Source: Candidatus Eremiobacter antarcticus
GTDB lineage: Bacteria > Vulcanimicrobiota > Vulcanimicrobiia > Eremiobacterales > Eremiobacteraceae
Assembly: GCA_003244105.1 (NCBI GenBank)
Contig: QHBK01000003.1
Coordinates: 292,004 to 356,003, forward strand
DNA length: 64,000 nt
Reading direction: 5' to 3'
In this document: one piece after another, positions 9,980 through 63,430 of the stretch
How positions within the stretch are numbered: position 1 is the first letter of the stretch
Layout of the letters: every line of letters starts with the position of its first letter
Notes under the pieces: model-generated
What the model was told of the DNA's origin: nothing
Database searches by the model: none
The model's input: the letters and a program-made list of their open reading frames with translations, nothing else
Position numbers and translations under genes: made by a program

Positions 9980-9999
9980 CCTCAGCCGAGCATCACAGC

Positions 10000-10035
10000 C
10001 GGAGGGCGATCGACAGGTCGTCCTCCGTTCTTATT
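10000..10035 (+). terminator. Terminator after the DUF5069-like gene
   Basis: CGGAGGGCGA (10000-10009) pairs with TCGTCCTCCG (10018-10027), one G-T pair, and is followed by TTCTTATT. It lies between two convergent genes and may work for both, since its far edge touches the hydrolase stop. Confidence 0.75.
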
Positions 10036-46099: not shown

Positions 46100-46250
46100 G
46101 GCAGTCTCCCAGATGCTTCGCAAACCGGAAATGATGAAGTCCGCGCCGTGGTTACGGCGCAGCGTTCCCGAGAAGACGTTAGCACGTTTTGAGCGAAAAA
46201 GCAACTTCGGCAGGCGGTTGGAGAGCCTCCACAGGGGAACGTTCATAGCT

Positions 46251-47936
46251 ATGCGGATGAGCAAAATTCAGCTGGCCATTGCAGTGGGGTGCGCAGGCGC
46301 AGGCATGCTGCTGTTGCCGCGCGGCGCGGCGCTCGGTTTGAATCCGCCCGCGCTCAACAGCGGCGCTCGCGCTCCTGCTGAAGGAACGGCCGCTCCCCCG
46401 TTCAGCCTCCTTGGGCTCGACGCGCGCAACTGGACGCTGGCCCAGACGCGCGGCCGCGTCACGGTTTTGAACTTCTTCGCGACCTGGTGTCCGCCGTGCC
46501 GTGCAGAGACACCTGACCTCAATGCCATCGAGCGGCGTTATGCCGCCAAGGGAGTGGCATTCGTCGGCATCGACGATGAGGAGAGCCCGGCGCTTGTCTC
46601 GGTGTTCGCAAAGACGAAGGGCGTGCGCTATCAGATCGTGATGGATTCCAAAAGCGCGGTCGAGCATGCGTACGACGTGCGAGCGATCCCGACGACGTAC
46701 GTCTTGGATCGCCGCGGCATCGTCCGCTATCGGCAAGTCGACGAGCTTAACGCGAAGACCCTCACAGCAGTGCTCGAGGCGGTCATCGCGGGCAAGCCGA
46801 TACCGCAAAGCCAAGCGACGCGACGGTTTCATGGGATTGTCTCAACAGCGCTGCGCTCGCTGAACGAAGGCTTGAAAAGCGCGAAGGCTGCGGCGCCTGG
46901 CAAGACGCCCGCGCTGGACGCCGCTATCAACACCGGCACGCGAGCCAACAAATCGATTGACACGCTGCTGTCAGGTCCGGATTCGTCATCCGTGAGCTAC
47001 TTCGATGTGACCAAAGCGCGCGGTGCGCTGAACAATGCGCTCGCCGAGGCCTACGCGTTGCGCGCTTCGGGCAGCGACGCGCTGGAAGCCGCCTTGCTGC
47101 GCGGTCAGACGTATGAGGATCAAGAACGCTTTGCGGATGCGGCCGCGCAGTACGAGCAGGCCATGCAGATGGCTCCCAAGGACACGAGAGGCTACGACGG
47201 CGCCTACCTAGCGCAGTACGAGATGCACGCCTACAGCCGATCGCTTGAGATCGCCCAGGCTGAAGCCGGCATCGCGCCGCAGGAGCCCGAGAGCTGGCTC
47301 ACCGTCGCATCGGCGCGCAACTCCCTTCATCAATACGGCCTGGCTCTCGAAGCGCAGCGAAAAGCCTTGGCGCTGGCTTCGCAAGCGTACGCGCGCAAGC
47401 CGTCAGCCAAAGATGCGGCCTACGAACTGGGCCGGGTTTGGCTGAAGATGGCGCGCACCGAGATTTTGGCCCATGATGCGGCCTCAGCGCGTCCGCTGCT
47501 GCGGCAAGCGTCCGCTGCTGCTCCCCAGACGATCGTCGACCAGCAGGCCGCCGAGCAGTTGGCGGCGCTTCGACCTTCGCAAATAGCCATCGACGGCTCG
47601 GGCGAGCGCGGGGCGCGCGGCAGATCGATGAATCCGGCGCACGTGTTCGTCAACGTGCGCAATCCGTCGGCCCAGGCGCGCGCGGTCAATCTGGCCGCCA
47701 CCGGTCTGCCCAGCCGCTGGCTCCTCTCGTTCTGCTACGGCACCGTGTGCAACCCGTACAAGGTCTCATTCGCGTTGCCCGCGCGAGGCAGCAAGCGCGT
47801 AGAGCTTTTGGTCGCGCCGTTGCGAGAAACAGGCGGACCCTGGTCGATGAGCCTGAGCGTTTCCGGCGGCTCGACGGCGCGCGTGAACCTCGACGCCAAA
47901 ACGGCAAAAGCTGCGATTCTCATCACCGCCAGCTAA
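46251..47936 (+). CDS. TlpA-like thioredoxin fused to a TPR and C-terminal beta domain
   Basis: A 561-residue exported protein. After a signal or anchor helix comes a thioredoxin-like domain (about 35-180) with FFATWCPPCRAE, GVAFVGIDDEES and the cis-proline AIPTTYVLD. A helical region with TPR-like repeats follows (about 290-450), and a C-terminal beta-sandwich-like part that contains SFCYGTVCNPYKVSF. TlpA proteins reduce periplasmic disulfides, for example in cytochrome c maturation. ATG 46251 has AGGGGA upstream; ATG 46257 is equally possible. Confidence 0.85.
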   Translation: MRMSKIQLAIAVGCAGAGMLLLPRGAALGLNPPALNSGARAPAEGTAAPPFSLLGLDARNWTLAQTRGRVTVLNFFATWCPPCRAETPDLNAIERRYAAKGVAFVGIDDEESPALVSVFAKTKGVRYQIVMDSKSAVEHAYDVRAIPTTYVLDRRGIVRYRQVDELNAKTLTAVLEAVIAGKPIPQSQATRRFHGIVSTALRSLNEGLKSAKAAAPGKTPALDAAINTGTRANKSIDTLLSGPDSSSVSYFDVTKARGALNNALAEAYALRASGSDALEAALLRGQTYEDQERFADAAAQYEQAMQMAPKDTRGYDGAYLAQYEMHAYSRSLEIAQAEAGIAPQEPESWLTVASARNSLHQYGLALEAQRKALALASQAYARKPSAKDAAYELGRVWLKMARTEILAHDAASARPLLRQASAAAPQTIVDQQAAEQLAALRPSQIAIDGSGERGARGRSMNPAHVFVNVRNPSAQARAVNLAATGLPSRWLLSFCYGTVCNPYKVSFALPARGSKRVELLVAPLRETGGPWSMSLSVSGGSTARVNLDAKTAKAAILITAS

Positions 47937-48074: not shown

Positions 48075-48515
48075 ATGAACCCCTTTCCGAAGTTTACGGG
48101 ACGATACGATCACTCGTTCGACGAGAAGGGCCGCTTGACCATACCATCGCGCTTCCGCGCACGGCTTGGAGACCACTTCGTGCTGACAATTGCGCCGCCT
48201 GATCCATGCTTAGCGATGTACCCTGAGTCCACGTGGTCCGAATTCTGCAGCAAGCTCGAGGCCGCCCCGCGCAAGGACGCCCAGTATCGGGCCTTCGTGC
48301 GCCACCTGTTCGCGAACACGGAAGAAGTCTCGGCTGACGCTCAAGGCCGGCTGCTGATCCCCTCGGTGCTGCGCGACGCGGTGGGCCTGCAACGCGAGGC
48401 GGTCCTCGTCGGCGCGCTGACGCGCGTTGAACTGTGGCCCGCTGAGGCTTGGCGCGCGACGCATGGCGCGCCGGACGGCATGGCTGACCTCATGACCGAG
48501 CTTGGGCTCTATTGA
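48075..48515 (+). CDS. mraZ: Transcriptional regulator MraZ
   Basis: A 146-residue protein with two AbrB/MraZ-type repeats, seen in DEKGRLTIPSRFR and DAQGRLLIPSVLR. It autoregulates the division and cell wall cluster. Upstream lie the promoter and four AGTGG boxes. The downstream rsmH start overlaps its end by 14 nt. Confidence 0.96.
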   Translation: MNPFPKFTGRYDHSFDEKGRLTIPSRFRARLGDHFVLTIAPPDPCLAMYPESTWSEFCSKLEAAPRKDAQYRAFVRHLFANTEEVSADAQGRLLIPSVLRDAVGLQREAVLVGALTRVELWPAEAWRATHGAPDGMADLMTELGLY

Positions 48516-49467
48516 GCATGCGCCGGTCATGCTGCAGGAGGCGGTGACGTTGCTGCGCGCCGCCGCCACTCTGGAACGCTCTCCCACCTTCGTCGACGCG
48601 ACCTTCGGCGGCGGCGGGCATTCGCGCGCGCTGCTCGATCAGGTGACGTCCTGCAATGTGATTGCGATCGACGCCGATCCGGCTGCCATCGCGCGAGCGC
48701 GCTCGATGGCGCAAGATTTCGGCGGCCGATTCGTCGCTTTTCAGCGGCGCTTTGGCGATCTCACTTCCGTCTTACAAGAAGCTGGCGTCGAGCGTATCGA
48801 CGGCGTCCTCTATGACTTGGGGCTTTCGTCATTCCAGCTTGCGGATACGCGCGGGTTTTCGTTCACCGGCGACGACCCGCTCGACATGCGCCTCGATCCG
48901 CAATCGGACGCCGCCACCGCGTCCGACCTGCTGCAAACGCTTCCGTTCGCCGGTCTGGAGAGGCTCCTGCGCGACTACGGCGAGGAACGCAGGGCCAAAG
49001 CGATCGCGCACGCGATCATCCAGCGGCGCGCTCCCCTCAAACGCTGGACCACGAGCGATCTCGTGGGAGCCGTTTTGCGCGCGCAGCCTCGACGCGAGCA
49101 GCGCCGCCACCAGCGCATCCATCCGGCGACGCGGACGTTTCAGGCGTTGCGAATGGCCGTCAATGACGACGTCGGCCAGCTCGAGCGCAGCTTGACCGCC
49201 GCTGCTCAAGCCCTCGCGCCGGGTGGCCGCATCGTCGCCATCAGCTTTCATTCGATTGAAGACCGGATCGTCAAGCACCGCTTCAAAGAATTTCAAGCGG
49301 CCGGCTTGACCGCGACCCTGACGCGCAAACCGATGCGGCCAAAAGCCCCGGAGGTCGCCGCCAACCCCCGCAGCCGCAGCGCGAAGCTGCGCGCCGCCGA
49401 GCGCGTTTCAGACGCTCCCCAGGCGCCGCTTGCACCCGCGAGATCGAGACGAGGAGCGAGCGCATAA
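48502..49467 (+). CDS. rsmH: 16S rRNA (cytosine-1402-N4)-methyltransferase
   Basis: A 321-residue SAM-dependent methyltransferase (MraW) modifying 16S rRNA. It has HAPVM near the start, DATFGGGGHSRALL (SAM site), the LYDLGLSSFQL segment, DMRLDP, FQALRMAVND and SFHSIEDR. The start is TTG 48502 inside mraZ; no ATG fits the conserved N-terminus. The C-terminal tail is basic and Ala-rich. Confidence 0.94.
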   Translation: MGSIEHAPVMLQEAVTLLRAAATLERSPTFVDATFGGGGHSRALLDQVTSCNVIAIDADPAAIARARSMAQDFGGRFVAFQRRFGDLTSVLQEAGVERIDGVLYDLGLSSFQLADTRGFSFTGDDPLDMRLDPQSDAATASDLLQTLPFAGLERLLRDYGEERRAKAIAHAIIQRRAPLKRWTTSDLVGAVLRAQPRREQRRHQRIHPATRTFQALRMAVNDDVGQLERSLTAAAQALAPGGRIVAISFHSIEDRIVKHRFKEFQAAGLTATLTRKPMRPKAPEVAANPRSRSAKLRAAERVSDAPQAPLAPARSRRGASA

Positions 49468-49468
49468 C

Positions 49469-49921
49469 ATGGCAATGGCCGCTTACGCGTACAAGCCACA
49501 ACTCGAGGCGAACGCAAAGCGCGAGGGCGACGGCCACGAGGCCGGGCGGCGGCTCAGATGGGAATCGCGGCGCCGCCTGAAGGTCTTTGCCAACGCCAAA
49601 GCGCTGGGCTTTTGTCTGGCGCCCGTGATCATGGTGCTGCTGTACGTCGGGCTGATGGCAGGACTCACCGCTCAAACGTATCGGCTGAGCGCCCAAGAAC
49701 GGCTGCGCAGCGATCTCATCCAGCGCGATGCAAGTCTGCGAAGCCGCGTCGCCCAGCTCGAATCCGTTGACCGGCTGCAAGCCGTGGCACGACAGCTGCA
49801 CATGGGACCTCCCAAGCGCGTCGCCGTGCTGCCCTTGCCGAGAGCGCCGGTCGCGGAGCAGCGGCGGACAGCGCTTTTGGAACGGGTCGCGGGCGTCGCG
49901 CACTGGCTCGTGGTGCGCTGA
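49469..49921 (+). CDS. ftsL: FtsL-like cell division protein
   Basis: A 150-residue bitopic protein with a basic cytoplasmic N-terminus, one membrane helix (about 49-68: LAPVIMVLLYVGLMAGL) and a coiled-coil region (TYRLSAQERLRSDLI, SLRSRVAQLES). The position between rsmH and ftsI is where ftsL stands in dcw clusters. FtsL sequences are poorly conserved, so the assignment uses topology and position. GAGGAG lies 12 nt upstream. Confidence 0.78.
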   Translation: MAMAAYAYKPQLEANAKREGDGHEAGRRLRWESRRRLKVFANAKALGFCLAPVIMVLLYVGLMAGLTAQTYRLSAQERLRSDLIQRDASLRSRVAQLESVDRLQAVARQLHMGPPKRVAVLPLPRAPVAEQRRTALLERVAGVAHWLVVR

Positions 49922-49965
49922 CGGCCAGTCGGCGTCCCCCCGCCGATCATCCATCGCGCGAGCGC

Positions 49966-51756
49966 GTGAAAGACAAAGAACGATCGGCGTTCCTCGTGCG
50001 CGCGCTCGTCATTTTTTGGGCGTTCTTCTTCTTCGCAGCGATGCTCGCCGCCAGGCTCTTCATCGTGCAGATCCATCAGGGGGCCGGTCTGGCCGCAAAT
50101 GCCGGCGAGGAGCACCTGGCGCAATTCCCGTTGAGCGCGCGCCGAGGCGATATCGTCGATCGCTTCGGAAACGTGTTCTCAACCAGCTTGCCTTCTTCAG
50201 CGATTTTCGCGCAGCCGGCCGGCGTCACGGAGCCGGCGGTTGAATCCAAACGTCTGGCGGCGATTCTGCGGATGAATGCCGGCGCGCTGCAGCGGCTCCT
50301 TTCGTCAAAGACGACGTTCGTGTACGTGGCGCGCAACGTTCCTCAAGCGGTCGCCGCTCGCATCGACGCTCTCGCGCTGCCCGGCATCGGCACCTCGGAC
50401 GAACCGATGGGTATTCGCGTGCAGCCCCAGTCGCGAGCCGCATCGACCGTGGTCGGATTCACCGGCGTCGATAACCAAGGGCTGTCAGGTCTGGAGTACC
50501 GCTTCAACGAGCTCTTGAGCGGCAAACCCGGCAAAGTCATCCAAGCGACGGATGCTGCACGCCGCCCGATTCCGTTCGGGCGGCGCACGGTGCAGCCGTC
50601 ACAGGCGGGCGCCAGTCTCGTGCTCACAATCGATCGATCCTTGCAGTTCGCCGCTGACGAAGTGCTGCGCTCGACCGTGGCGCGCTTTCACGCCGCGGAT
50701 GGCTCCATCATCATCATGCGCGCACGGACCGGCGAGGTGATGGCGCTCGCCAACTGGCCGGATTTCGACCCGAACCGGTATGCGGCGTCTCCATCGGCGG
50801 CTTGGAAGAATCAGGCGGTCACCGATCCGTACGAGCCGGGATCCACCTTTAAGCTCATCACCGCGGCCGCGGCGCTCGATTCCGGCAAAGTGAGCCTCGC
50901 TGACACGTTTCCAGCGCGAGACTCGATCGAGGTCGGAAACCGCATCATCCACAACGCCGATGACGGCCTCATGGCGTCAGGGCATGCCAGCGAGACGCTC
51001 GATGATATCGTCACGTTCTCTCACAACGTGGGAGCTGCACAGGTGGCCTTGCGCGTCGGCAAGCGCACGATGTACGAGTACATCCGGCGCTTCGATTTCG
51101 ATCGGGAGACCCGCATCGATCTTCCCGGTGAAAGCGCGGGCATCGTAGGAACCCCTGACGACTGGTGGGGCTCGCGCCTCGCCACCATAGGATTCGGCCA
51201 AGGCATCTCAGTCACGCCGCTCGCGTTGGCGCGCGCGTACTGCTCGATCGCCAACGGCGGCCTGCTGATGCGGCCGTTGATCGTGCGCTACGTGGTCGCG
51301 CCTGACGGCCACGTCCTGCGCCGGTACGACCCGCAGACGGTGCGGCGTGCGATCAGCTCGCAAACATCCGCTGCGCTGCTCGCGATGCTGCGCGACGTCA
51401 TGAAGCGGGGCACGGGCAAGGGGATCACCATGCCCGGCTATGCGCTGGCGGGAAAGACGGGAACCGCGCAGATGGTGATCGACGGCGCGTATGCCGGGGG
51501 GGCGTACACCGCATCCTTTGTAGGCATCGTGCCTGCGGACAAGCCGCAGTACGTGATCTTGGTGAAGATCGACCGTCCGCGCGGCGCCTACTACGGCAGC
51601 ATCGTGGCGGCGCCCGCCTTTCAAACGCTCGCCGGCACGGTGATGTGGCGCGAAGGCGTGACTCCGAGACACGCAGATGAGGCATTCGGCGCGCCCGCGG
51701 CGGCGGCCAACACAGCGGCGGGAGAGGCAACCGGCAAACCGAGAACACAGCCGTAG
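49966..51756 (+). CDS. ftsI: Peptidoglycan transpeptidase FtsI (PBP3-like)
   Basis: A 596-residue class B penicillin-binding protein that cross-links septal peptidoglycan. It has an N-terminal membrane helix, a dimerisation domain (about 45-230) and a transpeptidase domain with the nucleophile Ser293 in GSTFK, Ser352-His-Asn354 (SHN) and Lys497-Thr-Gly (KTGTAQ). There are no PASTA domains. The start is GTG 49966. murE begins immediately after the stop codon. Confidence 0.95.
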   Translation: MKDKERSAFLVRALVIFWAFFFFAAMLAARLFIVQIHQGAGLAANAGEEHLAQFPLSARRGDIVDRFGNVFSTSLPSSAIFAQPAGVTEPAVESKRLAAILRMNAGALQRLLSSKTTFVYVARNVPQAVAARIDALALPGIGTSDEPMGIRVQPQSRAASTVVGFTGVDNQGLSGLEYRFNELLSGKPGKVIQATDAARRPIPFGRRTVQPSQAGASLVLTIDRSLQFAADEVLRSTVARFHAADGSIIIMRARTGEVMALANWPDFDPNRYAASPSAAWKNQAVTDPYEPGSTFKLITAAAALDSGKVSLADTFPARDSIEVGNRIIHNADDGLMASGHASETLDDIVTFSHNVGAAQVALRVGKRTMYEYIRRFDFDRETRIDLPGESAGIVGTPDDWWGSRLATIGFGQGISVTPLALARAYCSIANGGLLMRPLIVRYVVAPDGHVLRRYDPQTVRRAISSQTSAALLAMLRDVMKRGTGKGITMPGYALAGKTGTAQMVIDGAYAGGAYTASFVGIVPADKPQYVILVKIDRPRGAYYGSIVAAPAFQTLAGTVMWREGVTPRHADEAFGAPAAAANTAAGEATGKPRTQP

Positions 51757-53253
51757 ATGCAAGCGACGACCGCCGCGACGCTGGAGCGCTTGTTGACGGG
51801 CGTCGATGCCCGCATCCGCGGCCAGACCGACGTTCCCCTGACTTCCATCGCCACCGACTCGCGCCGGGTGCGCCCTGGCGCGCTGTTTTTTTGTCTGCCG
51901 GGCCAGCATGTCGACGGACATGCGTTCGCGCCTGCGGCCATCGCTGCCGGCGCGCGGGCAATCGTCGCGTCGCGCGAGATCGATGCGCCCGCCGGCGTCG
52001 GCGTGGCCATCGTAGATGACTCCCAGAGCGCTCTTTCCCGGGTCGCCGCTGAATTCTATCATCACCCGAGCGCGGCACTGACCTGCGTCGGCATCACCGG
52101 CACCAACGGAAAGACCACTACGACCGTGCTGCTGGAGGCGATCATGTTCGCCGCTGGTCTGCGGTTCGGCGTCATAGGCACGCTTGGCGCAAAGCTGCGG
52201 GAGCCGAGCGGCGAGCTCGGCACGGTCGAGGAGCTGGAGCACACGACGCCGTTGGCGCACGACGTGCAGCGCCTGCTGGCGGCCTTTGCGGCTGCGGGCG
52301 CAGATGGCGCGGCGATCGAGGTATCGAGTCACGCCTTGTCGCTGCATCGCGTGGACGACGTCGAGTTCGATGTCGCGGTGCTCACAAACGTCACCCACGA
52401 CCACCTCGACTTCCACGAAACGCTCGACGAGTATCGGGCCGCCAAGCGGCGGCTCTTCCGAACGCCTGACGGGCGGCGTAAAGCGCCGTTGCGGGCCGCT
52501 TTGAATGGTGACGACGAAGAGGGACGCCGCCTGGCGTCATCCATGAAGGCGCGGCTGACCTTCGGCGTCGATAACGATGCGGCGCTCTTGAACGCGACCG
52601 GCGTGACGTTCGACCCCGCCGGCTCGACGTTCTTCGTCAAAGCGCTGAGACCGGCGGCGTTTCGGGTGAAGTTGCCGGGGCCGTTCAACGTCAGCAACGC
52701 GATGGCAGCCATCACGGCCGCGTGCGCCATGGACGTGGATCCCGAGGCGATCGCCGAAGGGCTGCAAACAGTCAACGCGGTGCCGGGCCGCATGACGGTC
52801 ATGTCGACGAAAGACATCTCCGTCTACGTCGATTACGCGCACACCCCCGACGGTTTGCAAGAAGTGCTAAAAGCGGCGCGCCGGCTCACGGCTAACCGGC
52901 TCGTTTGCGTCTTCGGCTGCGGCGGAGATCGCGACCGTGCCAAACGGCCGCTCATGGGGCAGGCGGCCGCCGCGCTCGCCGATCGGGTGATCGTGACGAG
53001 CGATAATCCCAGAGACGAAGATGCCAACGCGATCATCGCGGACATCGTCTCGGGAATACAAGGGAGCCACGAGGTCGTAGAAGACCGGGCGCAGGCCATC
53101 GAGCTTGCCATCAGCGAGGCGCGGCCCGGAGACGTGATCGTCATCGCCGGCAAAGGCCATGAGACGCACCAGATCGTCGGCGATCGCAGGCTGCCATTCT
53201 CAGATGTGGCGGTCGCTCGGCTCGCGCTCGACAAGGCGCGGCCATGCCACTGA
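51757..53253 (+). CDS. murE: UDP-MurNAc-tripeptide synthetase MurE
   Basis: A 498-residue ATP-dependent ligase adding the third amino acid to UDP-MurNAc-L-Ala-D-Glu. The P-loop GTNGKTTTT lies at about residues 115-123, followed by SSHALSLHRV, a FTNVTHDHLD-like segment and, near residue 415, DNPRDED, which matches the meso-diaminopimelate-specific DNPR motif. It overlaps murF by 10 nt. Confidence 0.96.
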   Translation: MQATTAATLERLLTGVDARIRGQTDVPLTSIATDSRRVRPGALFFCLPGQHVDGHAFAPAAIAAGARAIVASREIDAPAGVGVAIVDDSQSALSRVAAEFYHHPSAALTCVGITGTNGKTTTTVLLEAIMFAAGLRFGVIGTLGAKLREPSGELGTVEELEHTTPLAHDVQRLLAAFAAAGADGAAIEVSSHALSLHRVDDVEFDVAVLTNVTHDHLDFHETLDEYRAAKRRLFRTPDGRRKAPLRAALNGDDEEGRRLASSMKARLTFGVDNDAALLNATGVTFDPAGSTFFVKALRPAAFRVKLPGPFNVSNAMAAITAACAMDVDPEAIAEGLQTVNAVPGRMTVMSTKDISVYVDYAHTPDGLQEVLKAARRLTANRLVCVFGCGGDRDRAKRPLMGQAAAALADRVIVTSDNPRDEDANAIIADIVSGIQGSHEVVEDRAQAIELAISEARPGDVIVIAGKGHETHQIVGDRRLPFSDVAVARLALDKARPCH

Positions 53254-54638
53254 GTTTTCAGCGCTTTCTGCAAGTCTGCAACGCGCGCTTCGTAGCGGAT
53301 GCGGAAGCGCTCCCCGCCCTGTTTGCGCCCAGCACCGACTCGCGCACGTTGACGCGGGGCGAAGTGTTCGTGTGTCTGCGCGGTCCGCACTACGACGGCC
53401 ATGACTTCATCGCGGCGGCGATCGGAGCGGGCACTTCGGCAATCGTGGTCGACGACGCGAGCAAAGGGCCGCGTCAATCGGCCGTGCCGATCGTGCGAGT
53501 AGACGACGCCAAAGCGGCCTATCTGGCAGCTGCGTCTGCCGCACGGCAAGAGTTCTCCGGGCGGCTCATCGGCATCACCGGCAGCAATGGGAAGACGACG
53601 ACCAAGGAGATGACGGCGCAGCTGCTGGCGGCGGACAAGCGCGTCGTCACGACGCCGAACAACGAGAACAACGAGCTCGGCGTCGCCAAGCTGTGCTTCC
53701 GCTTGAACGACGACGTCGATGTTGCGGTGGCAGAGCTGGGCGCGCGGCACCCGAACGAGATCGCCGCGCTCGTGGACATCGCGCTGCCCGATGTCGGCGT
53801 CCTGACCAACGTCGGGGAAGCGCACATGGAGTTCTTCAGAGAAGAGGAAGACCTAGCGCGCACGAAATTCGCCATCTTTGGGCGCGGCGCGCACGCCGTC
53901 TGCAACGCGGCCGATGCGTGGTCGCGCTCTCTTGCGGCGGAATCGAAGATCGACACGACGGCGCTGTGGATCCGCTTGTGCGGCGATCCGCGGGTGCCGG
54001 GCCTCGCGTTGGAAGCGGGGTCGCCGCAGGACGGCCAAGTGGCGATCTCTCTGGGCGCGTCACACTCCTTTGCGTCTTGGCGCTTGCCGGGCGATCATAA
54101 CCTGCGCAACGCGCTCATGGCTTGCGGAGCGGCACTCCAAAGCGGTGTGCCCTTCGAATCGCTCTGCGCCAGGCTCGGAGAGCTGCGGCTGCCGCCGGGC
54201 CGGTTCGAATCGCACCGCACGTCGGCGGGCGCGACGATCGTGTACGATGCCTACAACGCGAGTCCCACGGCGGCGCTGCACGCGCTGCGCGCCTTCCTCG
54301 CGTTGCCTGCATCTCGCCACATCGCCGTCTTGGGCAGCATGGCGGAACTCGGGCCGCAGGCGGCCCGCCATCACCAGTCGGTCGGTAAGGCTGCGGCGGA
54401 AGGCGGCGTCGACCTGCTGTATTGCAGCGGCGAGCACGCGGATGCGCTTGTCGACGGCGCCGCACAGGGCGGGATGCCCCGCGACACGGTCATCGCGTAC
54501 GGCTCCAACGCGGAGGTGACCCAACTTTTGCGCGCGCAACTGCGCAGCGGAGACTGCGTGCTGCTCAAAGGATCCCGCATCCAGCACATGGAGCAGATCC
54601 TGGAAGGGCTTGCGGAGCCAAGCGCGGTCGCTTCATGA
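53244..54638 (+). CDS. murF: UDP-MurNAc-tripeptide D-Ala-D-Ala ligase MurF
   Basis: A 464-residue ligase adding D-Ala-D-Ala, the last cytoplasmic step of the pentapeptide precursor. The P-loop is GITGSNGKTTTKE; NNENNELGV, the LTNVGEAHMEFF segment and YDAYNASPTA follow as in other MurF proteins. Start ATG 53244 is inside murE; the stop overlaps the next gene (ATGA). Confidence 0.95.
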   Translation: MPLSFQRFLQVCNARFVADAEALPALFAPSTDSRTLTRGEVFVCLRGPHYDGHDFIAAAIGAGTSAIVVDDASKGPRQSAVPIVRVDDAKAAYLAAASAARQEFSGRLIGITGSNGKTTTKEMTAQLLAADKRVVTTPNNENNELGVAKLCFRLNDDVDVAVAELGARHPNEIAALVDIALPDVGVLTNVGEAHMEFFREEEDLARTKFAIFGRGAHAVCNAADAWSRSLAAESKIDTTALWIRLCGDPRVPGLALEAGSPQDGQVAISLGASHSFASWRLPGDHNLRNALMACGAALQSGVPFESLCARLGELRLPPGRFESHRTSAGATIVYDAYNASPTAALHALRAFLALPASRHIAVLGSMAELGPQAARHHQSVGKAAAEGGVDLLYCSGEHADALVDGAAQGGMPRDTVIAYGSNAEVTQLLRAQLRSGDCVLLKGSRIQHMEQILEGLAEPSAVAS

Positions 54639-55351
54639 GCCTGCGGTCGTTCACGCTCGAGCTCGAGACTCTCCCCAAGCACATCGTAGCGATTCCCGTG
54701 CGCACTCCCCTCATCAAGGAAGGCGACGACCTTGCCGCGATCGTGAGCGAGTCGCTGCATGGAATGATATCGTCTGCAGATGTCGTGTGCGTTTCGGAAA
54801 CAGCGGTCGCCATCGCTCAAGGCAGATCTATACGCGCCGAGGCGATCCGGCCCGGCAGGCTCGCGCGCATGTTGTCGCAGCGCGCAGGTTCGTACGCGAC
54901 GGTGAATCAGCCGGAATCCATGCAGCTCGTATTGGAAAACGCCGGCGTCTGGAAGGTGCTCACAGCCGCAGCCGCCGGGGCCGCAGGCAGGCTCATCGGG
55001 CGGCGCGGCGACTTCTACCGCATTTTGGGCTCCGAAGTGGCCGAGGTCGACGGCTACACCGGCACGATGCCCCCGTACGAACGCCATATCGTTCTCGGAC
55101 CTCAAGATCCCGCGGGTGTCGCGGAGGCCATCGCGCTTGCGTGCGCTGCCAACGCATGCATCGTGGACGCCAACGACCTGGGCAAGGCGCAGATCTTGGG
55201 CGCGAGCGCCGCAGTCGACCAGACGGCGGTCCGCCTGTGCCTCCTGTGCAACCCCGCGGGAAACGCGGACGAGCAGACGCCGGTGGTCGTCCTCAAGTAC
55301 AGGCCGCAGCGAGGAAGTCCGGCCCTTTCTCCCTTGGTCGGCCAACCGTGA
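54635..55351 (+). CDS. CofE-like F420-0:gamma-glutamyl ligase family protein within the dcw cluster
   Basis: A 238-residue protein resembling the coenzyme F420-0:L-glutamate ligase (CofE/FbiB N-terminal) family. Features are IPVRTPLIKEGDDLAAIV, cited from the start of the conserved GDDL loop, the DVVCVSETAVAIAQGR segment, a mid-section with GRRGDFYRILG, and D-rich metal-site candidates (ANDLGKAQ). The family forms gamma-glutamyl amide bonds using GTP. It lies between murF and mraY with 4-nt overlaps on both sides, so it is translated as part of the wall operon. No other F420 gene is present. A role in modifying a wall precursor is inference. Confidence 0.75.
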   Translation: MSLRSFTLELETLPKHIVAIPVRTPLIKEGDDLAAIVSESLHGMISSADVVCVSETAVAIAQGRSIRAEAIRPGRLARMLSQRAGSYATVNQPESMQLVLENAGVWKVLTAAAAGAAGRLIGRRGDFYRILGSEVAEVDGYTGTMPPYERHIVLGPQDPAGVAEAIALACAANACIVDANDLGKAQILGASAAVDQTAVRLCLLCNPAGNADEQTPVVVLKYRPQRGSPALSPLVGQP

Positions 55352-56334
55352 GCATCCGGGAAGCGGCTCTGGCGCTGCTCGCCGGAGCGGTGCTTTGCAG
55401 CGTCGCTATTCCATTCGTCATCGCAGCGCAACGCCGGCACCGCTTGGGTCAACACGTCTACGAAGACGCGCCGAGCAGCCACGCCGCGAAACAGGGCACG
55501 CCAACGATGGGCGGCCTCGCCTTTGTGGCTGCGGCGTTCGCCGGTCTAGCCATCAGCGGCTTCGCGGCGCCGGAGCGCGGTCTGTTCTGTCTGGTGGCGC
55601 TCGCGGCGGCTGTGGGATACGCCGACGACCTTCTCATCCTCAAGGGCCGCCGAGCCCTGGGCTTGCGCGCCCGCTGGAAGTTCGCTTTCATGGCACTGCT
55701 CGCGCTCGGGTACACAGCGTGGATCGGACAACAACCAGGCATCGCAACCGAGAACTGGTTCGGCCGCACCGTCGACATCCCGCATGCCTTGTGGTTCGCG
55801 CTGGCCGTTCTGGCGCTCGTGGGGACGGCAAACGCGGTCAATCTCACTGACGGGCTCGACGGGCTTGCCGTGGGCACGGTCATCCCCGCGTTGATCGCTC
55901 TCCAGTTGCCCGCTGCCGCATCCTCGATCGCTCCGATCGTCACCACGAATGTCGCGATGTCGGTCTTGGGAGCGTGTTTCACATTTCTGTGGTTTAACCG
56001 GCATCCTGCGCGGGTCTTCATGGGCGACACCGGTTCGCTGTTGCTCGGCGCGCTCATCGCGGGCAGCGCGATCGCGTCTCATCTGCTGTTGCTGCTGCCG
56101 TTGTTCGGGCTCGTGTTTGTCGTCGAGGCGCTCTCCGTCATGGCGCAAGTCGCCAGTTTCAAGATGTTCGGCCGACGCATCTTGCGCATGAGCCCGCTGC
56201 ATCATCACTTCGAGCTGTCTGGCTGGCGAGAGACCTCGGTCACGGCGGGCTTCGTCGCGTGCCAGACGGCGTGCGCCGCCGCAGCGTGGCTGCTGTGGTG
56301 CACCTCGAACGTGCGGGGCGCGCAAGCGCCGTGA
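55348..56334 (+). CDS. mraY: Phospho-N-acetylmuramoyl-pentapeptide transferase MraY
   Basis: A 328-residue membrane enzyme forming lipid I from UDP-MurNAc-pentapeptide and undecaprenyl phosphate. It has about ten membrane helices, the catalytic GYADDLL (Asp-Asp), NLTDGLDGLA, FMGDTGSLLLG and the PLHHHFEL loop. The start is GTG 55348 overlapping the previous stop (GTGA). Confidence 0.95.
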   Translation: MSIREAALALLAGAVLCSVAIPFVIAAQRRHRLGQHVYEDAPSSHAAKQGTPTMGGLAFVAAAFAGLAISGFAAPERGLFCLVALAAAVGYADDLLILKGRRALGLRARWKFAFMALLALGYTAWIGQQPGIATENWFGRTVDIPHALWFALAVLALVGTANAVNLTDGLDGLAVGTVIPALIALQLPAAASSIAPIVTTNVAMSVLGACFTFLWFNRHPARVFMGDTGSLLLGALIAGSAIASHLLLLLPLFGLVFVVEALSVMAQVASFKMFGRRILRMSPLHHHFELSGWRETSVTAGFVACQTACAAAAWLLWCTSNVRGAQAP

Positions 56335-56361
56335 ATGAACCAGCCCTCGACGTAAAATCTC

Positions 56362-57753
56362 ATGTCTGATTTCCTTGAGCGCCGTGATTCGGTGTTGGTC
56401 ATCGGCGCCGGCCGCAGCGGTCTTGCCACCGCCGAAGTGCTTCACGCGCGCGGCGTCTCGGTCGTCGTCTATGACGACAAGCCGCAGGAAGCGTTGGCGG
56501 CGGAGCGCCAGTCGCTCATGCGTGTGGGCGTGCCGCTCATCGGGCCGCCGGAATTACCGGCCGCCATTGCTGCCGCGAAGGGGGCGGTGGTCTCTCCGGG
56601 CGTGCCGCCGACCAACGCGGCTGTCCTGGCCGCGGTTCGCGCCGGCATATCAGTGGATTCCGAGATCGAGGTCGCGTACACGCTTTCCAAGGCGCCGATC
56701 ATCGCGGTCACGGGCAGCAAGGGCAAGTCCACGACAACGGCGCTCATCGGACATCTGCTGGCGGCGGCCGGAAAGCGCAATCGTGTGGGCGGCAACATCG
56801 GCAATCCGCTCATCCGCGAGACAGCCGAGGCCACAAGCGACGAATGGATTGTGGCCGAGGTCTCGAGCTTCCAGCTCGAGGGCATCCGGACGTTCGCTCC
56901 CGACATCAGCGTCCTGCTCAACATCTCGCCAGATCATCTGGACCGCTACCATTCCATGCACGAATACGCTGAAGCCAAATACCGCATCTTCGCCAATCAG
57001 AAGCCCAAAGATGTGTTCATCGGCAACGCGGACGATCCGTATTGCGCCGCGCTTCGCGACGGGCGCGGCCGCACCGTCCCCTGTCAGACGCTCTGGTACG
57101 GCACCGACCCGAGCGACGCAAAACTGAACGCGCTGCTCAAAGACGACTCGCTCGTGCTGCGCATCCGCGGTCGAGAGCGAGCGATCGCCGCGATTGCGGA
57201 TCTGCGGCTGAAAGGGAAGCATAACGCCGGCAATGCGATGGCCGCGGTGCTCGCCTCGCTGGCCGCCGGGGCTGCGGTGGAATCGCTGTCCGTTAATCTT
57301 GCGACGTTCGAGCCGTTGCCGCATCGCTTGGCGGTCGTGCGAACCGACGACAGCATCACGTGGGTGGATGACAGCAAGGCGACAAATCCGGACGCCGCGA
57401 TCAAAGCGATGGAATCGTTCGGCGAGCCGTTGATCCTCATCGCGGGTGGCAAGAGCAAGAGGACGGACTTTTCTCATTTCGCAGCGCAGGCATCGAAACG
57501 CGCGAAGATCGTCGTGCTGATCGGCGAGAGCGCTGCGGAAATGGGCGATCTCATCGACGGACCGCCCGTGGTCATCGCGCCCACCCTCGAAAAAGCGGTC
57601 AACGCGGCGGCCAACGTGGCGGTGCCGGGAGACGTGGTGCTGTTGTCGCCCGCGTGCGCTTCCTTCGATATGTTCGACAACGCCGAGCAGCGCGGCCGCG
57701 CCTTCGCGGACCTCGTCAGGGCCCGCACGAGTTCGGGGCTGGCAGCCTCATGA
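56362..57753 (+). CDS. murD: UDP-MurNAc-L-Ala:D-glutamate ligase MurD
   Basis: A 463-residue ligase adding D-Glu to UDP-MurNAc-L-Ala. The N-terminal Rossmann motif is VLVIGAGRSGLA, the P-loop VTGSKGKSTTT, then SSFQLEGI, NISPDHLDRY and the WVDDSKATNPDA segment, all diagnostic of MurD. Confidence 0.96.
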   Translation: MSDFLERRDSVLVIGAGRSGLATAEVLHARGVSVVVYDDKPQEALAAERQSLMRVGVPLIGPPELPAAIAAAKGAVVSPGVPPTNAAVLAAVRAGISVDSEIEVAYTLSKAPIIAVTGSKGKSTTTALIGHLLAAAGKRNRVGGNIGNPLIRETAEATSDEWIVAEVSSFQLEGIRTFAPDISVLLNISPDHLDRYHSMHEYAEAKYRIFANQKPKDVFIGNADDPYCAALRDGRGRTVPCQTLWYGTDPSDAKLNALLKDDSLVLRIRGRERAIAAIADLRLKGKHNAGNAMAAVLASLAAGAAVESLSVNLATFEPLPHRLAVVRTDDSITWVDDSKATNPDAAIKAMESFGEPLILIAGGKSKRTDFSHFAAQASKRAKIVVLIGESAAEMGDLIDGPPVVIAPTLEKAVNAAANVAVPGDVVLLSPACASFDMFDNAEQRGRAFADLVRARTSSGLAAS

Positions 57754-57769
57754 GCCGGCGGCGGGCTCC

Positions 57770-58906
57770 GTGCTAGAGCGCCGCTCCCCGGACTTGGTGC
57801 TGATCGGCATCGCGGGCCTGCTGACCGCCATCGGCATCGTCATGGTTTTTTCGGCTTCCTCGGCGGTCGCATACACGCAGTATCAAGACACGACGTACTA
57901 TCTCAAGCGGGAATTGCTGTGGGCCGGAGTTGGATGGGCCGCGCTGTTCGCGGCCGTGCGTTTCGACTACGCAAAATTGCGGCCGCTGGCCCCGCTCATG
58001 TTCGCGATCGCGGTAGCGCTGCTGGTCGTCGTGCTCGTGCCCCATATCGGAACGGTGTCGGGCGGTGCACGGCGCTGGCTGTCGCTGCGATTCGTGTCCT
58101 TCGAGCCGTCCGAACTGGCAAAACTGGCGCTCGTGCTCTTCATCGCCAGACTCTTGTCGGCGCGGGCGGATGGGGCGCGGTCGTTCCGCTCAGTCGGCTT
58201 TCCTGTGCTGTTCTGTGTCGGCGTCTGTTTCGTTCTCGTAATGCGCGAGCCGGATCTCGGCACGGCGCTGATGTTGCTGCTCACGGCGTTCGTGATGCTG
58301 TTCGCAGCCGGAGCGCGGCCCGTGCATCTGCTCTTGGAAGCGTGCACCGTCGTTCCCGCGGTGCTCGTTTTCATCTACGGAAGTCCCTACCGCCGCGAGC
58401 GATTTCTGGCATTCCTGCACCCGTGGAAAGATCCCACCGGTACGGGCTACCACATCATCCAGTCGCTCTACGCGCTCGGATCCGGTGGTCTCTTCGGGTT
58501 GGGGCTCGGGCAGAGCCGCCAAAAGTTCGGCTATCTGCCCGCCCAACACACCGACTTCATCTTTTCCATCATCGGAGAAGAACTGGGCTTCATCGGAGCG
58601 GCGGCGGTGCTCGTCACGTTCTTGGCGTTCACCTACCGGGGCATCCGAATCGCTATGCAAGCGGACGACCGTTTCGGGTTCTATCTCGCTGTGGGCATCA
58701 CGGCCTCGATCACGCTGCAGGCCTTCATCAATGTGGGCGTCGTGACGTCGTCATGGCCCGTGACAGGCGTCCCTCTTCCCTTCATCAGTTACGGCGGTAC
58801 GTCGCTTGCCACCACGTTGTTCGCGGTTGGCATTCTGGCGAGCATCTCGCGCGGACGCCGCCAGCGCGTGGCTGCGCTCGACATCTCACGCAGGAAAGCA
58901 TCGTAA
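57770..58906 (+). CDS. ftsW: Septal peptidoglycan glycosyltransferase FtsW
   Basis: A 378-residue SEDS protein with about ten membrane helices polymerising lipid II at the septum. Motifs include MVFSASS, GGARRW, SEL-type FEPSELAKL, RREPDLGTA-like MREPDLGTA, the AQHTDFIFSIIGEELGF segment (cited from AQHTDFIF) and GVPLPFISYGGTS. The start is GTG 57770. Its stop overlaps the murG start by 1 nt (TAATG). Confidence 0.94.
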   Translation: MLERRSPDLVLIGIAGLLTAIGIVMVFSASSAVAYTQYQDTTYYLKRELLWAGVGWAALFAAVRFDYAKLRPLAPLMFAIAVALLVVVLVPHIGTVSGGARRWLSLRFVSFEPSELAKLALVLFIARLLSARADGARSFRSVGFPVLFCVGVCFVLVMREPDLGTALMLLLTAFVMLFAAGARPVHLLLEACTVVPAVLVFIYGSPYRRERFLAFLHPWKDPTGTGYHIIQSLYALGSGGLFGLGLGQSRQKFGYLPAQHTDFIFSIIGEELGFIGAAAVLVTFLAFTYRGIRIAMQADDRFGFYLAVGITASITLQAFINVGVVTSSWPVTGVPLPFISYGGTSLATTLFAVGILASISRGRRQRVAALDISRRKAS

Positions 58907-60108
58907 TGAGGGTCCTGTTCACGGGCGGCGGCACCGGCGGCCACCTGTACCCGACGCTTTCGCTGGCCAGAGCGCTGCTGCGTGCCGATGGCGAAGCCGG
59001 GCTCTGCACAGCGCCGCGCGCGCCGGACGACGTGCAGGCACCTTCAAGCGACGCGCCCGATGAGGTCCTGTTCATTGGCGCCCGCGGAAAGGTGGATCAA
59101 AAGCTCTTGGAGCGCGACGGCATCCCGCATGTGACGCTCGGAAGCTCGCCGCTTCGCGGCAGTTCGGTGGTCGAAACCGTCGGAGGCTTATCTCGCAACG
59201 CGGTGGCGACGGCGCAGGCCATGCGCATCGTCTCGCGCTTCCGGCCGGACGTCGTGGTGGCAAGCGGCGGTTACGCTTCCGCTCCGGCTGTGATCGCGTC
59301 CGCCTGGCTGCGCGCCGCGGGCCTCTTGCGCAACACGAAGATCGTACTGCTCGAGCCTAACGTCATCCCAGGTCACGCCAACCGGCGCCTCGCCCGTTTC
59401 GCTGATGAGGTTTGGGGAGGATATGACAACACGGGCACGTCACACCATTTCAGAGAGAAGTTCCGGCTCATCGGGATTCCCGTGCGGCCCGAGCTCGTCA
59501 CGCCTTTGTCCCAAGCGGATGCGCGCCGCAGCCTCGGACTGCAGCCCGACGGTTTTCTCGTTCTTGTTTTCGGAGGGAGCCAAGGCGCGCGCACGCTCAA
59601 CGTGGCGACGTCGGGCATGGTCGCTCACCGCAGACTGCCCGCCCACTGGCAGATCTTGCACATCAGTGGCGAACGGGATTTCGAGTGGATGACGGCAGAA
59701 CGGCGCGCCGAGCCCAACGATAACCGGTACTCGCTGTTGCCGTACGTCGATGATATGGCCCTTGCATACCGAGCAGCAGACCTGGCTGTGTGCCGCTCGG
59801 GCGCCTCGACGCTTGCCGAGTTGGCAGCCGTGGGGTTGCCCGCGATTTTTGTGCCCTACCCGCACGCGGCGGACAACCATCAGCGGGCAAACGCCGACCA
59901 TTTCGTCGATCACGGCGCCGCTTTGATCATGCAAGACGAGCTGTTGACTTCGGATTCTCTGTATTGGATGCTGATGGATACGGCGGAGACGTCAAAACTG
60001 CAAGGCTTGCAAACCGCGTTGCGCAAGCTTTCGCATCCACAAGCGCTTGCCGTCATGGTGGAGCGTATCGCGCGCGCTAAGGTCGGGAGCCTGGGTTCTG
60101 CGGCCTGA
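58906..60108 (+). CDS. murG: UDP-GlcNAc transferase MurG
   Basis: A 400-residue membrane-associated GT28 enzyme making lipid II from lipid I. It begins with the FTGGGTGGHLYP motif, then GGYASAPAV, LEPNVIPG, FGGSQGARTLN and a CRSGASTLAE acceptor/donor site. A segment at about residues 27-50 looks like an insertion between strand 1 and the FIGARGK motif. The length is slightly above the usual 355-365. Confidence 0.95.
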   Translation: MRVLFTGGGTGGHLYPTLSLARALLRADGEAGLCTAPRAPDDVQAPSSDAPDEVLFIGARGKVDQKLLERDGIPHVTLGSSPLRGSSVVETVGGLSRNAVATAQAMRIVSRFRPDVVVASGGYASAPAVIASAWLRAAGLLRNTKIVLLEPNVIPGHANRRLARFADEVWGGYDNTGTSHHFREKFRLIGIPVRPELVTPLSQADARRSLGLQPDGFLVLVFGGSQGARTLNVATSGMVAHRRLPAHWQILHISGERDFEWMTAERRAEPNDNRYSLLPYVDDMALAYRAADLAVCRSGASTLAELAAVGLPAIFVPYPHAADNHQRANADHFVDHGAALIMQDELLTSDSLYWMLMDTAETSKLQGLQTALRKLSHPQALAVMVERIARAKVGSLGSAA

Positions 60109-60166
60109 AATTCGGGCATACGCACAGCCGAAGGGCGACCTTGCGCGACAGCCAAAGGCTGCACGC

Positions 60167-61588
60167 ATGAAGCGTTCGTATCAGCGCGTGCACTTCGTGG
60201 GCATCGGCGGTGTCGGCATGAGCGCGATCGCGCGCGTGCTGCTCGCGTTGGACATGAGCGTCTCGGGATCAGATCTCAAGATCAACGGCACTTTGGAGAA
60301 ATTGCGGACGCTGGGCGCGGCGGTGACGCTGGGCCATGCCTCTGAAAACGTCAACGGCGCGGATGCCGTCGTGATATCCTCGGCCATCCCTCAAGACAAT
60401 CCCGAGGTGATCGCGGCACAGCGCGCGGGCATCCGCGTGATGCAGCGCGCCGAAATGCTCGCCGAGATCATGGAGGATAAGCAGAGCGTCGCCGTCTCGG
60501 GCACGCACGGAAAGACCACGACGACCTCGATGATCGCATCGGTGCTCGACTCAGCAGGGCTCGCGCCGACAGTCCTCATCGGCGGCGAAGTGAACGATCT
60601 GGGGGCGAACGCGCGTCTCGGGGCGGGCGACATCGTCGTCGCCGAAGCGGACGAGAGCGACGCATCGTTTTTGCGGTTGCGTCCCACCTATGCGGTCGTG
60701 ACGAACATCGAGAACGACCATCTGGGATACTATCGCGACGTCGAGCACCTCATCGAGACGTTTCTCTCCTTTATCGAGAGGGTTCCGTCGCAGGGCTGGA
60801 TCATCGCGTCGGCCGACTGCGCCGCCGTGACCGAACTTTTGGCTCGCTTTCGCCGGATGCCGAACCTGTTGGGCGACGCGAACATCATGACGGCGGGGTT
60901 TGAAACGTCCGCCGACGTGCGGGCAGTGGATTGCACCTTGGCGGATTTCGGCTCTTCGTTTCGTGTGCGGATCAACCGCCAGGATTGCGGCGAGGTCGCT
61001 TTGCGCGTCCCGGGGCGCATGAACATCTCGAATTCGTTGCTCGCCATCGCCGTGGGGACGCGTTTGGAGGTTCCCTTCGAGACCATCGCGCGTGCGCTCG
61101 CCCGGTTCCGCGGCGTGGCTCGACGCTTTCAAGTGCTGTACGAGAGCGAGTTCATGATGGTGGTCGACGATTATGCCCACCACCCGACGGCCGTGCAGGA
61201 GACGATCGCCGCCGCTCGCGCCTACTGGCCGGGTCGCATCGTTGTGGCCTTTCAGCCGCACCGCTATAGTCGCACCGCCTATCTCATGCGCGACTTCGCG
61301 CGCGCGCTGCTCGGCGCCGACGCCATCGTCATCACCGACATCTACGCTGCGGGCGAGACGCCGTTGCCCGGCGTGCGCTCGGAATCCATCGTCGACTTCA
61401 TCCACGATTGCGATGCGGCCAAGAACGCTTTGCATCTGCCCAAGGTCGCCGACGTCCTCGCTTATCTGCAGCGGACCGTGACGTGCGGAGACCTGGTTCT
61501 CACGCTCGGGGCGGGCGACATCGGCGGCGTCGCGCACGAGTTGGCTGCCGGACTGTCCGCCGCGGACGCCGGCGTCGCGTCCGTCTAG
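60167..61588 (+). CDS. murC: UDP-MurNAc:L-alanine ligase MurC
   Basis: A 473-residue ligase adding L-Ala to UDP-MurNAc, the first Mur ligase step. Motifs: VHFVGIGGVGMSAIA, VSGTHGKTTTT (P-loop), EADESDASFL, TNIENDHLGYY and VVDDYAHHPTAV. ATG 60167 gives the conserved N-terminus. The open frame upstream of it overlaps murG and is not used. Confidence 0.96.
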   Translation: MKRSYQRVHFVGIGGVGMSAIARVLLALDMSVSGSDLKINGTLEKLRTLGAAVTLGHASENVNGADAVVISSAIPQDNPEVIAAQRAGIRVMQRAEMLAEIMEDKQSVAVSGTHGKTTTTSMIASVLDSAGLAPTVLIGGEVNDLGANARLGAGDIVVAEADESDASFLRLRPTYAVVTNIENDHLGYYRDVEHLIETFLSFIERVPSQGWIIASADCAAVTELLARFRRMPNLLGDANIMTAGFETSADVRAVDCTLADFGSSFRVRINRQDCGEVALRVPGRMNISNSLLAIAVGTRLEVPFETIARALARFRGVARRFQVLYESEFMMVVDDYAHHPTAVQETIAAARAYWPGRIVVAFQPHRYSRTAYLMRDFARALLGADAIVITDIYAAGETPLPGVRSESIVDFIHDCDAAKNALHLPKVADVLAYLQRTVTCGDLVLTLGAGDIGGVAHELAAGLSAADAGVASV

Positions 61589-61598
61589 CAGTTCTCCG

Positions 61599-62522
61599 TT
61601 GTCCGCTTCACGCGCCTTGGTCCCCGGCGATGCGCTGCGCGACGACCAGCGGCGCGGGCTTGCGGCGCTATTCGGCGACGCCGTTCGCTTCGACGAACCG
61701 CTCGCGCCGCGCACCTCGATGCGCGTGGGCGGGCCGGCGGCGGCGCTCGTCAACATCTGCGATGTCGGCTCGCTGATCGCTCTTCTGGATTTTTGCCAAT
61801 CGCAAGGGGTCGTCTGGACGATACTCGGTCTGGGCAGCAACGTGCTGGTGCACGATGAAGGCTTCGCCGGAATCGTGATCCGCCTGGGCGGGTCGTTCAC
61901 CGCAATCGCGATCACGGGGACGATCATGCATGCAGGCGGTGCGGCTCCGATTGCGGCCGTTTGCCGTCAAGCGGCGCAGTACGGACTGCGTGGGGCGGAA
62001 CCCCTCGTCGGCGTGCCGGGCACGGTTGGCGGCGCGATCCGCATGAACGCGGGGACGAACGTGGAGATCGGCGATCTCGTCCGCCGGGTAGAAGTGGTGA
62101 GCGCAGGCAAGGACGTCCGCGCAGTGACCCTGCCCGAGTTCTCATACCGCTCGTCTACCCTCGCGCGCGATGCGGTCGTGTGCGCCGCGGATCTCGAACT
62201 GCAACGGGGAGACCCGGTCGAAGTGCGCCGCGAGCTGCGGCGCCGCATCCAAGAGCGCAACGCTTCTCAGCCGCTCGAGCTCCCGAACTCAGGCAGCATC
62301 TTCCGCAACCCTGCTGGCGATCACGCGGCGCGGCTCATCGAGAGTGCGGGCTGCAAAGGCTGGCATTGCGGAGGCGCCGAGGTCTCGCCCAAACACGCGA
62401 ACTTCATCGTGAACCGCGGCGGCGCGACGTGCGCCGATGTGCTCGAGCTGATCGAACGCGTGCGCGCGGCGGTCAAACGCGACAGCGGCATCGAGCTCGA
62501 GACGGAAGTCCATGTGCTGTGA
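61599..62522 (+). CDS. murB: UDP-N-acetylenolpyruvoylglucosamine reductase MurB
   Basis: A 307-residue FAD enzyme reducing UDP-GlcNAc-enolpyruvate to UDP-MurNAc. Motifs: TSMRVGGPAA, LGLGSNVLV, the GVPGTVGGAIRMNAG segment, FSYRSS, and SGSIFRNP with the catalytic Ser. The type without the extra C-terminal domain (type II) is indicated. Start TTG 61599. The stop overlaps the ddl start by 4 nt (GTGA). Confidence 0.94.
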   Translation: MSASRALVPGDALRDDQRRGLAALFGDAVRFDEPLAPRTSMRVGGPAAALVNICDVGSLIALLDFCQSQGVVWTILGLGSNVLVHDEGFAGIVIRLGGSFTAIAITGTIMHAGGAAPIAAVCRQAAQYGLRGAEPLVGVPGTVGGAIRMNAGTNVEIGDLVRRVEVVSAGKDVRAVTLPEFSYRSSTLARDAVVCAADLELQRGDPVEVRRELRRRIQERNASQPLELPNSGSIFRNPAGDHAARLIESAGCKGWHCGGAEVSPKHANFIVNRGGATCADVLELIERVRAAVKRDSGIELETEVHVL

Positions 62523-63430
62523 CGTTGGATATCGTCGTGCTGATGGGAGGCAGCTCGCCGGAAAGGGAGATCAGCCTGCAGACGGGCGCCGGCGTCATGC
62601 AAGCGCTGAAAGCGTTGCACCATCGCGCTACAGCGCTGGATTTTGACGACCGCGTCGTCGCTGAGATCAGACGCCTGCGGCCCGCGGCAGTCTTCAACGC
62701 ACTGCATGGCGGGGCAGGCGAGAACGGAACAGCCGCCGCCCTGCTGGATTGGATGGGCGTTGCATATCAAGGCTCGGGCGTACGCGCGTCCGCGATCGCG
62801 ATGGACAAGTGGCTCAGTAAAGCGGCCTTCCGCGCAGAGGGCATTCCCGTGCCGCCCGGCAGGCGGCTCCCCGCGCGCGCTCTCTCCGCGTCTGCTTCCG
62901 CACCCGACGTTGCGTTGCCATGCGTCGTCAAGCCGATCGCGGAAGGGTCCGCGGTGGGTGTCAGCATCGTCCGATCGAGCTCCGACTTGCCCGCCGCCGC
63001 GCAGGCAGCCGCACCGGATGGCGGCGACGTCTTGATTGAAGATTACATCGCCGGCCGGGAGTTCACCGTGGCCGTTTTGGGGGAGGAGGCGCTGCCGGTG
63101 GTCGAGATCACGCCGCACGAACAGTTCTACAGCTATCGCGCGAAGTACACGGCGGGCGGCAGCACCCACACGGTGCCTGCGGACCTCGAGCCGGCAGCCG
63201 CTGAGGAGATGCAGCGGCTTGGCCTGGCGGTGCATCGCGCGTTGGGCTGCCGCGATTATTCCCGAACTGATCTGCTCATGGATGACGGCGGCCGCGTCGC
63301 CGTTCTCGAGTGCAACACCCTCCCGGGGCTGACGCCGCTCAGCCTATTCCCGGACGCCGCACGCGCCGCCGGCATCGCCTACGAGGCTCTTGTAGAACGG
63401 TTACTGGGATTTGCGCTGGCCCGCTCATAA
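62519..63430 (+). CDS. ddl: D-alanine--D-alanine ligase
   Basis: A 303-residue ATP-grasp enzyme producing D-Ala-D-Ala for MurF. It has VVLMGGSSPEREISL, FNALHGGAGENG, the lysine in CVVKPIAEGSAVG, EDYIAGREFTVAVLG and ECNTLPGLTPLSLFP. The start is GTG 62519 within the murB stop. Confidence 0.95.
   Translation: MTLDIVVLMGGSSPEREISLQTGAGVMQALKALHHRATALDFDDRVVAEIRRLRPAAVFNALHGGAGENGTAAALLDWMGVAYQGSGVRASAIAMDKWLSKAAFRAEGIPVPPGRRLPARALSASASAPDVALPCVVKPIAEGSAVGVSIVRSSSDLPAAAQAAAPDGGDVLIEDYIAGREFTVAVLGEEALPVVEITPHEQFYSYRAKYTAGGSTHTVPADLEPAAAEEMQRLGLAVHRALGCRDYSRTDLLMDDGGRVAVLECNTLPGLTPLSLFPDAARAAGIAYEALVERLLGFALARS

Follow-up and report, generated by a model that had tools for sequence, protein, structure and literature searches.

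A CofE-fold protein encoded between murF and mraY throughout a class of Eremiobacterota is a candidate ligase of peptidoglycan precursor modification

The dcw cluster is among the best-studied bacterial operons, and the inventory of its cytoplasmic steps is considered complete. In the window, by which we mean the whole 64,000-nucleotide stretch of Candidatus Eremiobacter antarcticus DNA analyzed here, a gene resembling cofE lies between murF and mraY, and the question is what a protein of the F420-0:L-glutamate ligase family does at this point of wall synthesis. The original prediction was that it modifies a peptidoglycan precursor or an isoprenoid-linked intermediate, for instance by adding an amino acid, and that the gene overlaps both of its neighbors by 4 nucleotides; the overlaps are indeed present, as the shared ATGA and GTGA sequences (Table 1). 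DNPR is the motif of the meso-diaminopimelate-adding MurE, and the murE of the window carries it, so the stem peptide of this host is probably of the DAP type. Just 5' of mraZ, a long ORF (46113 to 47936) reads as a TlpA-like thioredoxin domain joined to TPR-like repeats on its C-terminal side.

Table 1. Features of the window at and around the CofE-like gene; dcw gene names outside murE to murD were assigned by reading of the ORFs and by position.
Feature	Coordinates	Strand	Basis
CofE-like ligase gene, class-specific short form, 238 aa, ATG start	54635..55351	+	Pfam, AlphaFold2, Foldseek
ATGA shared by murF stop and CofE-like gene start	54635..54638	+	
GTGA shared by CofE-like gene stop and mraY GTG start	55348..55351	+	
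murF, upstream partner	53244..54638	+	Three Mur ligase Pfam domains
mraY, downstream partner	55348..56334	+	PF00953 and MraY signature PF10555
murE, DNPR-containing product	51757..53253	+	Pfam domains, sequence
murD, dcw cluster continues	56362..57753	+	Pfam domains
dcw cluster mraZ-rsmH-ftsL-ftsI-murE-murF-[CofE-like]-mraY-murD-ftsW-murG-murC-murB-ddl	48075..63430	+	

A relative of the CofE-like gene was found in 133 of 148 sampled genomes of the phylum (Eremiobacterota/Vulcanimicrobiota) and, within the window's class (families f1 to f3), in 105 of 116. Scanning of the genome contigs gave 76 class loci, and all 73 that retain both flanks have the order murF-CofE-mraY, with a 4-nucleotide overlap with murF in 50 (taking the nearest in-frame start) and with mraY in 54; a further 29 fetched class loci, which overlap in part with the set of 76, are consistent with murF-CofE-mraY-murD, some of them being cut by contig ends. 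Since relatives at 46 to 73% identity occupy the same site at every class locus with both flanks, neither the ORF nor its placement in the dcw cluster is due to chance. Eleven class genomes lack a relative: nine show no mraY above the cut-off, in another (G130) the mraY match begins 152 nucleotides from the contig start, and in the last (G127) murF lies directly before mraY. The G127 contig in question (C95, locus L212), which also holds a second mraY fragment, encodes a MurF of 31.5% and a MraY of 40.5% identity, values lower than and unlike those of the class, and it was for this reason taken as foreign and is probably contamination. Outside the class but within the phylum, 13 loci have murF immediately before mraY, with no insertion. 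The CofE-like relative is fixed inside the dcw cluster of a whole class of Eremiobacterota, and the survey of dcw clusters suggested alongside the original prediction thus uncovered the same insertion throughout the class and not its absence from relatives. A search for the gene on plasmids gave no match. In the dcw cluster of one genome (G028), about 4.3 kb lies between ftsW and murG (L070:13916-18265).

In one genus (g4), the association with murF goes further. Two of its genomes (G044, locus L005, and G085, locus L013) contain one uninterrupted ORF of 733 to 734 residues that comprises the whole of MurF and the CofE-like domain, the MurF part of the L005 protein showing the three Pfam Mur domains, and in a third (G126, locus L012) an ORF cut by the contig end starts with the MurF C terminus (LLKGSRVQRMEEIL) and continues as the CofE-like domain.

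Conservation of the CofE-like protein also exceeds that of almost every other dcw protein, which speaks for a strongly constrained enzyme. Across the class loci, its mean identity to the window protein is 54%, compared with 42% for MurF, 48% for MraY, 48% for MurD, 40% for MurG, and 43% for MurC; MraZ alone exceeds it (57%), and FtsW roughly equals it (53%). Residues E55, G104, G125, F127, G132, D139, P156, D178, N180, D181, N206, P207, G209, N210, T215, and P216 do not vary in any of 95 relatives. The acids among them (E55, D139, D178, and D181) are what a metal-nucleotide site would need, but sequence alignment could not match them to the active-site acids or metal ligands of CofE.

The relation to CofE is one of fold and not of family membership in the narrow sense. 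Residues 22 to 103 match Pfam F420_ligase (PF01996; E = 2.4e-17, 63.6 bits, cut-off 25), and this match involves only the N-terminal part of the profile (positions 2 to 81 of 218). The NCBIfam cofE models give 43 to 49 bits against cut-offs of 181 to 274; TIGR01916, the model of the F420 enzyme, gives 42.9 bits (cut-off 180.65) and aligns at profile positions 4 to 82 only, and the folate-type model TIGR04132 gives 13.8 bits (cut-off 350). A phmmer search of the PDB returned CofE structures only, and the AlphaFold2 model (pLDDT 88, pTM 0.85) had significant Foldseek matches in the PDB to CofE structures only (E = 1.5e-10 to 3e-9, TM 0.52 to 0.59), placing the protein in the CofE fold. Profile comparison with true CofE by hhalign covered residues 10 to 189 (97.8%) and left the C-terminal part unaligned; in sequence alignment, the C terminus, where CofE has its F420-binding part and swapped hairpin, is shorter and unalignable. 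In the tree, true CofE is split from all relatives (100%), and the dcw forms, long forms, and Bacillota forms make up separate blocks; rooting by true CofE puts the root inside the dcw group, which is probably a long-branch effect. Judged by these profiles and the tree, the dcw protein belongs to a CofE-fold subfamily apart from F420 CofE.

The other classes of the phylum have a long form of the relative, about 400 residues in length, in which an N-terminal membrane helix and a β-rich domain precede the CofE-like domain, and its gene is located outside the dcw cluster. Ten genomes with the long form also carry a second, weakly similar protein; the two of these that were scanned are both true CofE, above the TIGR01916 cut-off, and the second proteins adjoin genes that read by eye as cofD, cofC, and F420-dependent oxidoreductases. 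Because the long form coexists with true CofE, the CofE-like relative and the F420 enzyme are separate paralogues in this phylum. At one locus (L040), the start of the long form and the stop of a ddl gene overlap, the latter scoring above the cut-offs of three D-Ala-D-Ala ligase subfamilies; at most other-class loci, the long form has no recognized wall neighbor. A conserved neighbor of about 500 to 830 residues accompanies it at 14 loci (L036, L038, L039, L042, L044, L045, L047 to L052, L054, and L055), and the one tested, in L052, had no Pfam match. In one lineage, a gene reading as FolD lies directly or closely 3' of the long form (L038, L039, L042, L047, and L049).

Relatives also occur in Bacillota, where 157 of 300 genomes from the phylum of a Syntrophomonadaceae genome have a match, some of them weak. 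These loci are related to one another, and their counts are not independent events. In 8 of 29 inspected loci (L175 to L178 and L180 to L183), the CofE-like domain is the C terminus of a protein of 530 to 630 residues that reads as a fusion with Amidase_3 (N-acetylmuramoyl-L-alanine amidase), often followed by a gene for a SpoVB-type flippase; PF01520 was found in three of four scanned proteins, those of L175, L176, and L178, and also in that of L181, with E values down to 1.5e-38. The fusion proteins have no hydrophobic N-terminal helix (maximal 19-residue hydropathy of 0.65 to 1.54 versus 2.57 in the long form) and so are probably cytoplasmic. Among 63 flanked loci, an amidase is fused or lies within 1.5 kb in 23 (on the same strand in 17), a SpoVB-type flippase lies within 1.5 kb in 12, and a gene for the N-terminal domain of the long form is directly upstream in 14; the flippase is nearest to TIGR02900, with 349 and 312 bits, under the cut-off of 372. 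In several Bacillota, as in L153, that N-terminal domain is a separate gene (9433-9981 in L153) that overlaps the CofE-like gene (9977-10618) and matches no Pfam family. About half of the Bacillota loci have no recognized wall neighbor. A gene for a pyruvoyl-dependent arginine decarboxylase stands beside the CofE-like gene, mostly divergently, at L153:8841-9296, L204:10252-10725, and 13 other loci, which possibly hints at a link to polyamines. The idea that a polyamine is placed on D-Glu for SLH tethering is a weak one: of the 15 decarboxylase genes near the 63 loci, only 1 lies within 1.5 kb and on the same strand, and the host has no SLH protein.

The MurF fusion, the ddl overlap, and the amidase and flippase links in Bacillota independently point to wall metabolism and lend the original prediction partial support; that a precursor is the target is what we infer from them. 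Gene position and fusion indicate a shared process, not a shared substrate. In CofE, GTP phosphorylates a carboxylate, that of phospholactate, whereupon the amino group of L-glutamate attacks, and the authors of its structure liken the enzyme to MurD, to which its mechanism is described as strongly similar (PMC10861534). By analogy, the dcw protein would be a nucleotide- and metal-dependent amide ligase of the CofE fold recruited to peptidoglycan synthesis, in which GTP or ATP would phosphorylate the substrate carboxylate and an amine would attack the acyl phosphate. The substrate might be the MurF product UDP-MurNAc-pentapeptide, modified ahead of its attachment to the membrane by MraY, or else lipid I, directly after that step; the isoprenoid-linked substrate is possible and no likelier than the soluble UDP-precursor. 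The site would be a free carboxylate, most plausibly the D-Glu α-carboxylate or the DAP ε-carboxylate, and the added group an amino acid or another amine. Genomic association is strong support for a shared process and weak support for any one reaction, and hence we give an even chance to the proposal that the protein is a nucleotide-dependent amide ligase modifying a carboxylate of a cytoplasmic peptidoglycan precursor between MurF and MraY.

That the gene is simply the cofE of an F420 pathway, as its PF01996 match and fold might suggest, is hardly credible given the rest of the host genome (2.64 Mb in 19 contigs, 95.8% complete, the window lying on contig C3). Its single PF01996 match is the dcw gene; the sole CofD-family match is YvcK (375 bits, versus 31 bits with the F420 cofD model, cut-off 257), and two tandem CofH-like proteins are MqnC (454 bits, cut-off 428) and MqnE (420 bits, cut-off 435, its best model), a pair that by these scores belongs to futalosine menaquinone synthesis. 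Nothing in this assembly passes the CofH cut-off, and the CofG models reach at most 56 bits (cut-off 213). With YvcK and MqnC/MqnE in place of CofD and CofH, and true CofE in a separate clade, service of the dcw protein in F420 synthesis is very unlikely and was rejected. The earlier remark that no F420 gene is near holds for the whole assembly as far as the CofD, CofG, and CofH models cover it, and a complete F420 pathway with the dcw gene as its only cofE, named beforehand as the opposing outcome, was not found. Rather improbable is a cofactor or housekeeping ligase, acting on folate or some other small molecule, whose place in the operon has no bearing on its function. COG1478 proteins serve as FolC2 in Chlamydia (PMC1971073) and are discussed as such in L. 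reuteri (PMC5061717), and a FolD-reading gene stands beside the long form at four or five loci of one lineage. However, the host has a strong FolC (351 bits, cut-off 163), so there is no folate gap for the protein to fill and a folate role is not required; with the TIGR04132 score far under its cut-off, that role was rejected, and it would leave the class-wide dcw fixation and the MurF fusion unexplained.

Two further readings keep the protein within wall metabolism. It might act on another wall-related molecule, for example in recycling or in the repair of precursors, where it would join an amine or a peptide to the muramic acid lactyl carboxylate; we consider this unlikely. N-acetylmuramoyl-L-alanine amidase cuts at the lactyl amide, and in Bacillota the CofE-like domain is fused or adjacent to Amidase_3 proteins that lack both a signal peptide and a membrane helix at the N terminus. 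The phospholactate used by CofE itself likewise presents a lactyl carboxylate (PMC10861534). In the window's class, however, the partner is MurF and not an amidase, and the three Amidase_3 genes of the host lie elsewhere, away from the CofE-like gene. In addition, the lactyl carboxylate is not free in the MurNAc of the MurF product. The protein might also be a noncatalytic partner, with a CofE fold devoid of ligase activity that serves as a MurF-MraY scaffold or flux regulator; the MurF fusion and mraY overlap would be expected of a scaffold, and the fold is truncated at the C terminus relative to CofE, whereas acidic and polar residues that stay invariant in two phyla and in several architectures, together with the strong conservation within the class, accord better with an active site and make this option quite improbable.

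A well-conserved additional enzyme in the dcw cluster, class-wide and in one genus joined to MurF, would imply either an unknown precursor modification or an unknown control point, and many bacterial proteins labeled coenzyme F420-0:L-glutamate ligase in organisms without F420 would gain a function, correcting a systematic misannotation. Our broader proposal, of an undescribed CofE-fold precursor step universal in one class of Eremiobacterota and, in many Bacillota, of a related ligase working with a cytoplasmic muramoyl amidase, seems tenable to us at somewhat less than an even chance; these walls would then carry an unrecognized modification of the stem peptide or muramic acid. No literature link of CofE with dcw, murF, or mraY was found in open-access papers. 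The wall can feasibly be tested, because the phylum has a cultured member, Vulcanimicrobium alpinus (PMC9758169).

Among known systems, MurT/GatD and other precursor-modifying ligases, which amidate D-Glu, resemble the proposed activity in that a stem carboxylate would be changed in the cytoplasm at the expense of ATP. Unlike the CofE-like protein, they have an unrelated fold, and MurT-type amidation as a reaction already present in the host was rejected because the host genome has no match to the MurT C-terminal domain (MurT_C); a search of this genome for FemAB gave two weak, marginal matches only. In the peptidoglycan of Selenomonas and Veillonella, a polyamine is attached to the D-Glu α-carboxylate, which resembles the proposed reaction in that an amine is joined to a carboxylate of the stem; the literature on that modification names no gene that we could find, and the host differs in having no SLH (OmpM-type) protein, so SLH use is unsupported there. 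FolC2 (CT611 of Chlamydia, in the TIGR04132 group) sets a precedent for a non-F420 substrate in the CofE family (PMC1971073), although the CofE-like protein falls far short of that group and its host possesses FolC. The closest system is CofE itself, with the FbiB N-terminal domain (PF01996, TIGR01916): the overall fold is shared (Foldseek E = 1.5e-10, TM 0.59 to 2phn), as is homology over about the first 190 residues. The dcw protein differs from F420 CofE in scoring far under the family cut-offs and forming a separate clade, in a C-terminal part about 35 residues shorter, in a helical insertion before D139, and in residing in a dcw cluster in a genome without F420 genes. Its fold and likely chemistry are already known; its place, its partners, and its probable class of substrate are new.
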